A program made the position numbers and the translations under genes. A stretch of 64,000 nucleotides of DNA from Streptomyces sp. ISL-66 (lineage in GTDB: Bacteria; Actinomycetota; Actinomycetes; Streptomycetales; Streptomycetaceae), in assembly GCF_018614135.1 (NCBI RefSeq), contig NZ_JAGGOW010000120.1, positions 1 through 64,000 of the forward strand. Reading direction: 5' to 3'. Below the pieces are notes generated by a model, which was not told where the DNA came from, did not search any database, and saw nothing but the letters and a program-made list of their open reading frames with translations. This document shows, piece after piece, positions 13,956-17,439 of the stretch (positions are counted from its first letter, which is position 1; every line of letters begins with the position of its first letter).

Positions 13956-15434
13956 TCACTGTTCCTGGGGCGGTTTGCCCTCCGCCGCGGACACCTCGAC
14001 GAACTCGACCTGGCCCTTGCCGTTGAGGCGCAGGATGGGGACGGCCTTGTTGCGGGGATTGCCGTTGTTCTGGAAGGAGATGAACCCGCTGGCCCCGGCC
14101 ACCTGTTGGGTGCCGTCCATCTGGTGGAACATCCGGGCCACCGCGTCGCCCGCGACCTGCCCCTGCCAGCGGGCGGCCATCTGGATGCCGTGGGCCGCGG
14201 CGAGGACCGCGTCGTGGCCCATCAGGGCCCCGCCGTCCTCGCGGGGGTCGTGCGGGAACCACTGGTCCAGTAGCCCGCCCGGCTGGAAGTTCTTCGCGGA
14301 CGGCGCGGACACCGCCTGCGGCGCCGAGCGGTACATGTCGGGGTGGGAGAGGCCGGTGTAGAGCACCTCGATGCCCGTCCCGGCGGCCCGGGCGAGCTGC
14401 TCGGCGTTCAGGTTGGTCGTGTCGTCCCCGGTGAACACGGTGAACTGCTGGTCGGTGCAGCTGCGGTTGGAGAGCGCGTCCAGGAAGTGGGTGAGGTGCT
14501 GGCCGCGGCCCGCGAAGTAGACGAGCTGCGGGCGCTGCTGGCACAACTGCCCCGGCATGTAGCGCAGTTCGTTCTGCCAGGCGCTGCTGACGGAGGAGTC
14601 GTAGGTCATGCGCTCCGCGACGAGCCTGTGCTGGTCGCCGTCCTGGAAGGCCTTGGTGAAGGCGGTGCCGAGGGTGGAGGCGTAGAGGTCCCCCTTCGCC
14701 ACGTCCTGGATGACGACGGCGGTGGCGACGCCGCGCCGTTTGAGGTACCCGGCGCCCGCGTACGCCTCGTCCTCGTTGGTGGGGGCGATCCGGACGAAGC
14801 CGTTGATGCCCTGGATGTTCGTGGCGGTCAGCGTCGCTCCGACCATGGCGAGTCCGTGCTCGGAGAGGCGGCTTATGGCCGCGAGGTTCTCGTCCGTGCT
14901 GGGTCCGAGGCCGGCCACCGCGACGAGCCGGTCGGGGGAGTCCTTGCGGGCGATCAGCTCGTCGACGGTGTGTTTCCACTGGGTCGACTTGCTGCCCGGA
15001 TTGGCTATCAGCAGACGGATCTTGGGGCTGGCCGCGAGGTCGCCCTGGTTGTGCCGGTACTGGGCGAGGTAGGCGCCCTGGAGTTCGTGGCGGACGCCTT
15101 CGGCGGAGTTGCTGTCCCCGGCCGTGGTCGTGAAGGAGGTGAAGTAGGCGACGCTGACGTACGGTTCCTTGTCCGCGTTGGCGAGGACCCGGCGGTTCTC
15201 CTCTTCGATCTTCCTGCTGACGGCGTCGAGGTGCGGTGCGAAGACGTAGGAGCCGTCACTCACTCCCACGCACTCGTTGTCCGCGCCCAGTTCGACGACC
15301 CCGTCGGCGCATCTGGCCTGGCGTTCCTGCAGCCAGCCGACCCCCAGCCAGAGCGTCGCGACCAGGACGACGGCCGCGGCGGTGGCGAGGGCGACGCGGC
15401 GTACCACGTGCAGGGGCCATTCGAGTCTGGGCAC
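13956..15434 (-). CDS. Membrane-anchored periplasmic-binding-type receptor (Leu/Ile/Val-BP fold)
   Basis: A 492-residue protein with one N-terminal transmembrane anchor (ALATAAAVVLVATLWLGVGWL, residues 15-35) and no lipobox. An extracytoplasmic domain follows with the type I periplasmic-binding fold seen in branched-chain amino-acid receptors: VSVAYFTSF, LQGAYLAQY, VAVAGLGPSTDENLAAISRLSEHGL and the domain-2 switch NGFVRIAPTNEDEAYAGAGYL. No ABC permease or ATPase genes are near. Instead it follows, by four bases, a large cytosolic STAND-like protein, so it looks like the sensor half of a two-gene receptor system. Ligand unknown. Confidence 0.8.
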   Translation of the reverse strand: MPRLEWPLHVVRRVALATAAAVVLVATLWLGVGWLQERQARCADGVVELGADNECVGVSDGSYVFAPHLDAVSRKIEEENRRVLANADKEPYVSVAYFTSFTTTAGDSNSAEGVRHELQGAYLAQYRHNQGDLAASPKIRLLIANPGSKSTQWKHTVDELIARKDSPDRLVAVAGLGPSTDENLAAISRLSEHGLAMVGATLTATNIQGINGFVRIAPTNEDEAYAGAGYLKRRGVATAVVIQDVAKGDLYASTLGTAFTKAFQDGDQHRLVAERMTYDSSVSSAWQNELRYMPGQLCQQRPQLVYFAGRGQHLTHFLDALSNRSCTDQQFTVFTGDDTTNLNAEQLARAAGTGIEVLYTGLSHPDMYRSAPQAVSAPSAKNFQPGGLLDQWFPHDPREDGGALMGHDAVLAAAHGIQMAARWQGQVAGDAVARMFHQMDGTQQVAGASGFISFQNNGNPRNKAVPILRLNGKGQVEFVEVSAAEGKPPQEQ

Positions 15435-15438
15435 GTGT

Positions 15439-17439
15439 TCAGCCCTCCCCGCCGGCGGTCTGGGGATCGCGCCAATGACGGTGCCGCTCCGCCTCGTTGA
15501 ACAGGGCCACGATGTCGTTCCTCCGCAGTTGTGACAGCTGGGTGTAGCCGTCGGCGATCATGTCGTTGAGGCGCATGGCGGGATCGGCGAGCGGATCGCT
15601 CCACACCCAGCGGGTGGTCACCAGTGTGTGGATCACGGACTCGGTGTCCATCACGCGCCCGGGCCGGCGCGGGACGAGCCCGGCGAGGAGCTCCAGCGGT
15701 CCGCTGTCGGCGGGGAGGCGGTTCGGCGCGGCGGTGATCGTGTCGAACTCGGAGATCCACTGCGCGGCCGGTACGGCGGTGAAGCGCCGCGTCAGGTGCG
15801 CGGTGACCTCCTCGGTCCGCCCGCGGGCGAGCTGGTGGTACATCTCCTGCACCGGCTTGCCCTCGTCGCGGTAGTACTCCGCGAGGAGTTCGTGCACGGC
15901 GTCCCACCCCTCGGGACGTGCGGCCAGCCGCCACAGGAGCAGCCGGCGCAGCCACGGGTGGAGCACCGGCACGACGGCGACGGGTCCGGTCAGCAGCCAG
16001 CGGGCGCGGATGTCGCCGAACAGCGAGTCGTCGGGGCTGAGCAGCCGCGTGGCCACCGAGAAGTCCCGGGCCGCGGCACATTCGGCGAGGGCGGCGCGCT
16101 GGGTTCCGTCGAAGTCGCGCAGGAGGTGGCCGAGGGCGGTGTCGGCCAGGGTGGCTGAGTCCTCGCCGGTGCGCAGCGGCCGGTCGGGCAGGGTGCACAG
16201 CCAACGGTCCTGCTGCGGGCCCGAGTCCGGGGGCGGCCCGGCCTGTCGCAGTACGTCGAGCACCTGGTGGACGGCGCGCGGCAGGCCGCCGGTGAGCCGG
16301 TGGACGAAGGGGGTGAGACGGGTCAGCGGGGCTAGGTCGCTGTGCCCGCCGAGCTGGAGCTCGATGCGGATCCGCACTTCGTCCAGGTTGAGGTCGCGCA
16401 GGCGTAACGGGTACCACCAGGTGTCCTCGCTGTCGCGGGTCGGCCGGTGGGCGTCCCAGTCGGCCAGGGAGGCCCGGTCGGGGCCGCGCAGCTGCCAGGG
16501 CCAGGAGTCGCCGGTGGCCGGGCCCCAGCGGGGCAGCCAGCGGTTGGAGCTGGCGACGACGGTCAGCGGATCGCTGGCGTGGCCGGCCACGACCGTCTCG
16601 TCGTGCCGGGAGCGCAGCAGCAGGTCGAGGAAGCGGCGGCCGTACTCGGTGTGGGAGTTGTCGAGGAGCAGCAGGTAGGAGCGGGGCATGAAGTTGCGGA
16701 CGGTATTGCGCCTGAGGTCCTCCAGGAAGGCCGAGAAGAGGACGAGGTCGAGCCGCTCCTGTTCGTTCTCGTCCCCCTCGTGGCGCCAGAGGTTGAGCTC
16801 CACGAGGGCTTCCATGGGGTCCGCGCTGCGGGTCATGGGGTGGCGTCCGTACCAGTGGGCCCCGGCCGTGAGCCGGTTGCCCAGCCTGCCGCCGAGGAGA
16901 CCGGGCATGGTGCGGCGGCCGCGCCGCAGGGCGTCCTGGAAGAGGGCGAGCGCGGCGGTGGAGGCGCCTTCGGGCATGCCGACCGCGCCCATGCCCACTT
17001 CGAAGAAGGCGGCCAGGTAGTCGCCGTGCCGGGCCTCGTTCTCCTCCTGGAACCGATCGAGCTGGCGCTGTACCGCGCGCCGGCCCTCGGCGAGGCTGCG
17101 CATGCGCAGCTCCTGGTCGGAGGCGAGCAGGCCGAGGCTGAGCAGCGGGAAGTGGGAGCGGCCGTAGCGGGGGAGCTTGCGTTCCAGCTGGCGGGCCAGG
17201 AGTCCGAGGGCGTAGCGCGGCAGCAGGGACTGGGACCCGCCGAAGTTGACGAAGGCGAAGGGGTACTCGGGCCCGAAGCGCTCCATCAGTGCGCTGTGCG
17301 CCTCGCTGGCTCCGCTGCCGGCCGGGCCGAGGAGCATGGTCAGGGGCCGCTCGGCCGCCGGGTCCTGCTTCAGGCACGCCTCGACGAGCGACACGATGCC
17401 GCCGCGGCCCCGCAGGCCGATGCCCGTACCCGGCTCCAT
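15439..17439 (-). CDS. STAND/AAA-like protein with degenerate Walker A
   Basis: A 666-residue cytosolic protein. Residues ~30-50 read LTMLLGPAGSGASEAHSAL, a P-loop in which the nucleotide-binding Lys is Ala. A Walker B-like SYLLLLDNSH lies near residue 245. The middle (VHRLTGGLPRAVHQVLDVL) is the helical lid pattern of STAND NTPases. The C-terminal third is helical, ending ADGYTQLSQLRRNDIVALFNEAERHRHW. Leu345 is encoded by TTA, a rare bldA-dependent codon in streptomycetes. It is four bases from the downstream receptor gene, so the two are co-translated. The start was placed at the ATG after a GGGGGG tract; upstream in-frame starts exist. Function unknown. Confidence 0.65.
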   Translation of the reverse strand: MEPGTGIGLRGRGGIVSLVEACLKQDPAAERPLTMLLGPAGSGASEAHSALMERFGPEYPFAFVNFGGSQSLLPRYALGLLARQLERKLPRYGRSHFPLLSLGLLASDQELRMRSLAEGRRAVQRQLDRFQEENEARHGDYLAAFFEVGMGAVGMPEGASTAALALFQDALRRGRRTMPGLLGGRLGNRLTAGAHWYGRHPMTRSADPMEALVELNLWRHEGDENEQERLDLVLFSAFLEDLRRNTVRNFMPRSYLLLLDNSHTEYGRRFLDLLLRSRHDETVVAGHASDPLTVVASSNRWLPRWGPATGDSWPWQLRGPDRASLADWDAHRPTRDSEDTWWYPLRLRDLNLDEVRIRIELQLGGHSDLAPLTRLTPFVHRLTGGLPRAVHQVLDVLRQAGPPPDSGPQQDRWLCTLPDRPLRTGEDSATLADTALGHLLRDFDGTQRAALAECAAARDFSVATRLLSPDDSLFGDIRARWLLTGPVAVVPVLHPWLRRLLLWRLAARPEGWDAVHELLAEYYRDEGKPVQEMYHQLARGRTEEVTAHLTRRFTAVPAAQWISEFDTITAAPNRLPADSGPLELLAGLVPRRPGRVMDTESVIHTLVTTRWVWSDPLADPAMRLNDMIADGYTQLSQLRRNDIVALFNEAERHRHWRDPQTAGGEG

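Follow-up and report, generated by a model that had tools for sequence, protein, structure and literature searches.

A probable two-gene transmembrane receptor with a lysine-less STAND-like partner and a bldA-dependent codon in Streptomyces sp. ISL-66

Why should a membrane-anchored protein with the ectodomain fold of an importer binding protein be encoded four bases from a STAND-like protein whose P-loop has lost its lysine? The question is raised by two genes of Streptomyces sp. ISL-66 (NCBI RefSeq assembly GCF_018614135.1) at positions 13956-17439 of the 64,000-nucleotide stretch that we analysed (contig NZ_JAGGOW010000120.1, positions 1 to 64,000; hereafter the window). Both genes lie on the minus strand with a 4-base spacing, in the order P0001, encoding the ATPase-fold protein (hereafter the ATPase), then P0002, encoding the receptor. 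We regard them as probably the two parts of a split transmembrane receptor, gated by bldA, in which a pseudo-STAND protein serves as the transducer. A sequence-only reading had described a membrane receptor and a 666-residue STAND-like protein four bases apart, and the coordinates, AlphaFold2 models and motifs bore this out. It had also reported Ala for the Walker A Lys and a TTA codon linking the ATPase gene to bldA, both of which held for the window pair (Ala44; codon 345) and beyond it, as described below. Neither P0001 nor P0002 matched a Pfam or NCBIfam family above the curated cut-off.

Pairing and natural fusions of the receptor

We searched 150 genomes of the same genus and found that all 33 ATPase places, which were spread over 30 genomes, adjoined a receptor match on the same strand when coordinates were compared by hand. 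The receptor query itself had matches in 118 of the 150 genomes. In a class-wide profile search of 394 genomes, 34 of the 36 ATPase places at E ≤ 1e-10 had a receptor beside or fused to them; the exceptions were an ATPase in G086 with no receptor and an ATPase-like stretch in G166 (C128) where the contig ends. The 36 do not include weaker matches (1e-10 to 1e-5), most of which were short P-loop stretches lacking a receptor. Because up to 8 or 10 candidates per genome were scored in the same-genus search and three in the class search, these counts are lower bounds. Among named loci (L numbers) fetched by their receptor, 77 of 80 had an upstream ATPase frame, and of the other three one was broken (L097) and two lay near contig ends (L142 and L146); no receptor frame passed the threshold used at L071, L228, L230 and L231. 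The receptor profile at E ≤ 1e-5 matched 88 of the 394 class genomes and 29 of 137 genera. Whole-genome searches were made within the class, and the named loci come from Streptomycetaceae and one member of the Micromonosporaceae, Longispora. The gene-neighbourhood conservation that the sequence-only reading had put forward as a check thus amounts to near-obligate pairing, and neither of the two patterns it had set against itself, homologues regularly without the receptor or an importer nearby in other genomes, was seen (the latter among the permease matches listed).

The receptor ectodomain was also found joined to cytosolic signalling parts in single chains. The clearest fusion of ATPase and receptor (L223, 1298 aa) matched both profiles, that of the ATPase at 6e-48 and that of the receptor at 5e-33, and carries a Walker A of GPGGSGKT, with weaker cases at L199-L201 and L222; these E-values were computed over small sets of reading frames. 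Other chains that matched the receptor profile start, by Pfam, with TIR_2 (L219) or Pkinase (L215), and one joins TIR_2, Pkinase, a transmembrane segment and the periplasmic-binding-protein type I (PBP-I) ectodomain (L213 1668-4712, minus strand, by Pfam; L232 1528-5034, plus strand, alike by eye). A chain of 1221 aa (L233 878-4540, minus strand) runs from TIR_2 through an NB-ARC/AAA_16-like part, below Pfam cut-offs, and a transmembrane segment to the PBP ectodomain, a TNL-like domain order with an extracellular sensor. DUF4062 precedes the transmembrane segment and ectodomain in L203 (Pfam, 1.5e-12) and, by eye, in L204, L216, L217 and L218, and EAD1 is joined through a transmembrane segment to the ectodomain in one of two adjacent L227 genes and in L229 (both Pfam) and, by eye, in the other L227 gene and in L226. 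In these fused chains a hydrophobic stretch between the parts was read by eye as the transmembrane segment.

Because the same ectodomain follows TIR, kinase, NB-ARC-like, DUF4062 and EAD1 parts, it is best read as a sensor and not as part of an importer. An ectodomain, one transmembrane segment (by eye or AlphaFold2) and a cytosolic signalling module recur together, either in one chain or as a near-obligate pair, and receptor function is well supported. We also recovered single-chain receptors in which no P-loop was seen by eye (L064-L070, L194, L196-L202, L214, L220 and L221); L199-L201 weakly match the ATPase profile.

The AlphaFold2 model of the receptor (mean pLDDT 92) has a single long helix at the N terminus, followed by a PBP-I ectodomain. 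Its best structural match was LivK (3td9; Z 38.9, 2.7 Å over 346), together with other amino-acid binders such as LivJ, and lower rows included AmiC (1qo0, Z 31.0) and mGluR8 (6bsz, Z 29.6). A phmmer search of P0002 against PDB sequences returned choline kinases only, which we took as chance. The model, the sequence and the fusions together suggest a short cytosolic tail, one transmembrane helix, a two-Cys loop and a Venus-flytrap ectodomain outside the cell. Just outside the membrane is a CxxGV...ECVGV signature, with both Cys invariant in the pair alignments and visible by eye in the fused relatives. A simple gene caller had placed the start of the receptor at 15407 and not at 15434; since the conserved tail R(I/L)EWPLH(I/V)V(R/K)R sits upstream of 15407, the start at 15434 is supported. 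In 16 Ala-clade receptors (the clade is defined below), tail residues W6, P7, L8, H9, V11 and R13 are 88-100% conserved, and the tail exceeds most transmembrane positions in conservation, with the motif missing from two of the 16 (L101 and L103). The EWPLH tail is a candidate contact for the ATPase.

For the ligand, the receptor family profile matched mGluR5 weakly (E 0.005), with Ser179 aligned to the second Ser of GPGSS and Thr203 to the Thr of SATSMDL, residues that in mGluR5 presumably bind the glutamate backbone. Ser179 is invariant in the family and Thr203 nearly so, and the ligand is most likely amino-acid-like.

The Walker A site of the STAND-like partner

Among 115 aligned ATPases, the Walker A position holds Lys in 76, Ala in 33 and Arg in four, and is uncovered in two. 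In a tree of 107 distinct ATPases, all 31 Ala rows formed one group with support 100, a single change; the tree was made by a quick method and carried long-branch warnings elsewhere. Members of this Ala clade retain the remaining P-loop residues as GPxG[SA]GAS (all 33 scored) together with the Walker B Asp, and comparison with orthologues of 91-94% identity gave dN/dS of 0.03/0.2 to 0.05/0.28. Loss of the lysine is therefore old and retained, not a sign of decay. Without that lysine, the ATPase of this clade probably acts as a transducer or scaffold that either does not depend on nucleotide or does not hydrolyse it. Arg replaces the lysine in L019, L022, L033 and L075, by three separate changes on the tree.

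The STAND Walker B motif is hhhhD followed by D or E. The sequence-only reading had taken the Asn that follows the Walker B acid as a further sign that the protein may not hydrolyse ATP, and here it was mistaken: DN occurs in 101 of the 115 sequences (DD in six, DE in one), and 69 of those 101 have the Walker A Lys, so that DN is the family norm and we rejected a Walker B lesion. A paralogous pair elsewhere in the same genome (contig C198), again ATPase then receptor, has an intact Lys (GGGRRTGKT) and shares LLLLDN. The ATPase frame of this pair, like those of L089 and L097, is broken in the draft assembly and was left unmended. Near it lies a gene for a protein that by eye resembles a WD40-repeat protein (L003 8886-11000, minus strand).

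The AlphaFold2 model of the ATPase (mean pLDDT 83) gave NRC4, RPP1, CED-4 and PabY2304 as its best VIA-align rows (Z about 12.5, 4.1 to 6.7 Å over about 310). Across NLR, CED-4 and Apaf-1 chains Z ran from 12.6 to 9.5, which is moderate for a mostly helical protein; CED-4 (2a5y) superposed at 5.0 Å over 317 and PabY2304 (2qen) at 4.1 Å over 309. The absence of a family from these match lists was given no weight as evidence. With this STAND-type fold the window ATPase combines TGGLPR, which we take to be the GxP motif of STAND type, and departs from the canonical Walker A GxxxxGK[ST] and from the Walker B D-D/E pattern. At E ≤ 0.1 its relatives matched the Pfam models AAA_16 (36 of 54), AAA_22 (36 of 54), nSTAND_NTPase5 (11 of 54) and NACHT (5 of 54), and the ATPase profile retrieved generic P-loop proteins from PDB sequences (best E 0.003).

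TTA codons, proposed mechanism and alternatives

TTA was found in 31 of 75 ATPase genes at the named loci, versus none of the 80 receptors and 2 of 155 other genes of at least 400 aa, the comparison genes being called by a simple gene caller at the named loci. In the set of distinct ATPases (the 115 without L089, L135, L026, L032 and four identical tails), 47 of 107 genes carry TTA, in 28 alignment columns; the Ala clade uses 10 of these. From the Leu codon table about one TTA would be expected in a 113-sequence ATPase set (L089 and L135 dropped, as their Walker sites are uncovered), versus 52 observed. Orthologues carry TTA at positions 9, 25, 73, 111, 217, 274, 317, 345, 397 and 483; the column of the window gene is also used in L009 and L010, and other columns elsewhere. 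Such differing positions imply repeated gain, and hence selection for the presence of a TTA in the ATPase gene, wherever it falls, which points to selected bldA control. Among the fused receptors, 13 of 31 have a TTA in the open frame; frames were read from stop to stop and several codons near the start may precede the true start codon, and for those outside Streptomyces a bldA meaning is doubtful. For S. coelicolor, Chandra and Chater report 147 genes with TTA and describe regulators as frequently containing it; no entry in the part of their TTA gene table covered names this pair (PMC4255298).

We propose that a small molecule outside the cell, most likely amino-acid-like, would close the flytrap of the sensor, and that the transmembrane helix and the EWPLH tail, which is conserved, would relay the change to the cytosolic partner with the STAND/NLR fold. 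That partner would then present or release a surface for a downstream target that neither gene encodes. The STAND partner would not be translated until the bldA tRNA is available, and the receptor, by operon order, probably not either; because of this wait the unit would act late in growth or development.

Several points weigh against this proposal. A missing Walker A Lys does not prove missing nucleotide binding. The STAND assignment of the window ATPase depends on its relatives and on moderate Z scores, because the ATPase matched no Pfam family at E ≤ 0.1, its model found no PDB match by Foldseek at E ≤ 0.001, and the AAA+ Cdc6/ORC chains scored nearly as well as the STAND ones (Z 11.3). A full-length ATPase in G086 (L234 2986-5271, plus strand) has no receptor beside it and directly adjoins a ccsB-like gene, and the genome that holds L223, the one full-length fusion of ATPase and receptor, is 81% complete. 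Genes found as neighbours supplied the profiles, though the searches require no neighbour. Finally, the Fisher tests of TTA in the ATPases against neighbouring genes and receptors (1.6e-19 and 1.5e-14) treat related genes as independent.

One alternative is that the receptor serves an ABC importer as an orphan substrate-binding protein, the permease lying elsewhere and the AAA neighbour being unrelated. The LivK/LivJ-type fold of the ectodomain is consistent with this, and 8 to 17 matches to the importer permease family PF02653 (BPD_transp_2) were found per genome in 12 genomes with an Ala-clade pair. Among the matches listed, however, no permease adjoins the pair or lies on the window's contig, in agreement with the sequence-only reading that no transporter genes accompany it; the closest is about 7 kb away in one genome (G053), and in the other 11 it is at least 33 kb away or on another contig. 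Together with the 33-of-33 linkage and the same ectodomain in chains that start with a kinase or TIR, this makes an orphan binding protein very unlikely, and we rejected an importer component on the fusions and on the lack of an adjacent permease among the matches listed. Loss of a catalytic residue and a patchy spread (a close orthologue in 12 of the 150 same-genus genomes, own included) could also mark what remains of a receptor system that was once active and is now decaying. Purifying selection already disfavours such a remnant, and with low dN/dS, 33 members that keep GPxG[SA]GAS and recurrent new TTA codons it is hardly credible. It is somewhat unlikely that the Ala44 ATPase is still a nucleotide switch in which another residue or the Asp-Asn Walker B holds ATP or ADP. 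The kept GPxG[SA]GAS and Walker B Asp suggest that the pocket may be kept, but the P-loop Lys is the standard phosphate contact, and a nucleotide role seems to have been relaxed repeatedly, given the Arg of sister lineages and the many fused relatives in which no P-loop was seen by eye.

The pair could instead be a surface immune (conflict) sensor that detects a molecule released by a competitor or phage, the STAND partner then triggering dormancy or death through an unlinked effector. In favour of this, receptor relatives carry fused TIR, EAD1, NB-ARC-like and DUF4062 parts, NLR and CED-4 structures come closest to the fold of the ATPase, and EAD1 belongs to the conflict systems described by Kaur et al. 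2020 (PMC7159879). Relatives gave weak PADLOC matches to mad8 (5 of 54), PtuA (3 of 54) and PDC-S01 (1 of 54), and single relatives weakly matched Avs4 (7e-4) and EruA (0.008) in NCBIfam. The window proteins themselves yielded one weak PADLOC match, P0001 to mad8 (E 0.013), and none for P0002; Pfam shows no effector in either gene, and no third gene was found common to the whole Ala clade. Control by bldA and a cytochrome c biogenesis-like neighbourhood of other pairs (see below) fit development or physiology equally, and we consider an immune role unlikely. The sequence-only reading had spoken of a ligand-sensing or defence-type unit; ligand sensing is strengthened by the fusions to signalling domains, and the defence part gains indirect support at most, from the weak mad8 match of P0001 and the scattered weak PADLOC and NCBIfam matches in relatives.

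Returning to the split receptor, we tentatively place it, as a possibility that falls short of a probable one, in an undescribed superfamily of modular surface receptors of Actinomycetes, counterparts in style to Toll and NLR receptors. These would share an amino-acid-type flytrap and a two-Cys loop and have interchangeable outputs (split STAND, pseudo-STAND, TIR, TIR-kinase, TIR-NB-ARC, DUF4062 and EAD1); the split-STAND arm of Streptomyces would be bldA-gated through selected TTA codons, and in one clade the STAND protein would work without ATP hydrolysis. Such receptors would link extracellular sensing directly to bacterial NLR-like proteins, whose triggers are mostly unknown, and a natural pseudo-STAND would offer a test case for STAND switching without ATP hydrolysis. 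Through its recurrent TTA codons the receptor class is tied to Streptomyces development, and so bldA mutants and amino-acid screens could put its role to a direct test.

The features of the window pair are collected in Table 1. The surroundings of the pairs varied. We rejected a conserved operon beyond the two genes in the Ala clade, as one subclade (9 to 14 loci) has a common context and the others differ, and the flanks of the window pair match only two loci, both outside the Ala clade. K-type pairs adjoin a conserved ccsB/resB-like cytochrome c biogenesis cluster, named by eye, at 41 of the 80 named loci (e.g. L121; L077, L079 and L081).

Table 1. Features of the window pair, in window coordinates.
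Feature	Position	Strand	Basis or remark
P0001, first gene, STAND-like ATPase-fold protein, 666 aa from ATG	15439..17439	-	gene call
P0002, second gene, putative single-pass receptor with PBP-I ectodomain, 492 aa from GTG	13956..15434	-	gene call, AlphaFold2
Intergenic gap between ATPase and receptor genes, 4 bases	15435..15438	-	
Walker A GPAGSGAS, residues 38-45, Ala44 for Lys	17305..17328	-	sequence, alignment
Walker B LLLLDN, Asp260-Asn261	16657..16674	-	DN in 101/115 sequences
TGGLPR, STAND-type GxP-like motif	16276..16293	-	G385 and P387 invariant in 54 sequences
TTA codon 345 of the ATPase gene, bldA-dependent Leu codon	16405..16407	-	only TTA in the pair
Cytosolic tail VPRLEWPLHVVRR, candidate docking peptide	15396..15434	-	alignment of 16 Ala-clade receptors
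Helix 8-40 with transmembrane segment	15315..15413	-	AlphaFold2 helix; transmembrane segment by eye
Membrane-proximal extracellular signature CADGV...ECVGVSD, Cys42 and Cys55 invariant, probable disulfide loop	15255..15311	-	
Ligand-binding (Venus-flytrap) domain, residues 90-490	13965..15167	-	alignment, AlphaFold2, structure comparison

Comparison with known systems

In the open-licence literature searched, we found no description of a receptor-STAND pair, a pseudo-STAND clade or the shared ectodomain, and several known systems resemble the pair in part. With the STAND/NLR switches (Apaf-1, CED-4 and plant NLRs) the window ATPase shares the fold, the position of the P-loop, the Walker B Asp and a GxP-like motif, and its relatives weakly match AAA_16, NACHT and nSTAND models. 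Unlike these switches, its clade lacks the Walker A Lys, has Asn after the Walker B Asp and no fused effector, and is partnered by a membrane receptor. The receptor has the ectodomain fold common to PBP-I receptors (LivJ/LivK, AmiC-AmiR, mGluR and ANF), and the Ser and Thr of its putative amino-acid site align with mGluR5 at the weak E-value given above. It differs from all of them in its N-terminal transmembrane anchor with the sensor outside, its two-Cys juxtamembrane loop and its STAND partner.

Kaur et al. describe EACC1, a two-gene caspase-based system, with instances of transmembrane helices and a downstream extracellular PBP domain (PMC7159879). Like the window pair, EACC1 is membrane-associated, actinobacterial and made of two genes, and L227 and L229 join EAD1 to the ectodomain family of the window receptor. 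Unlike EACC1, the window pair is without a caspase (Pfam gave no caspase family in P0001 or P0002 at E ≤ 1), and its two constant parts are a PBP protein and a STAND protein. Ser/Thr kinases with a substrate-binding-protein (SBP) or ANF ectodomain, and PknG clustered with glnH, are described in a further source (PMC1262709). These likewise combine a substrate-binding fold with a cytosolic signalling enzyme, and L213 and L215 are such kinases with the ectodomain family of the window receptor. The window pair differs from them in having no kinase, its putative transducer being a pseudo-STAND protein supplied by a separate gene.

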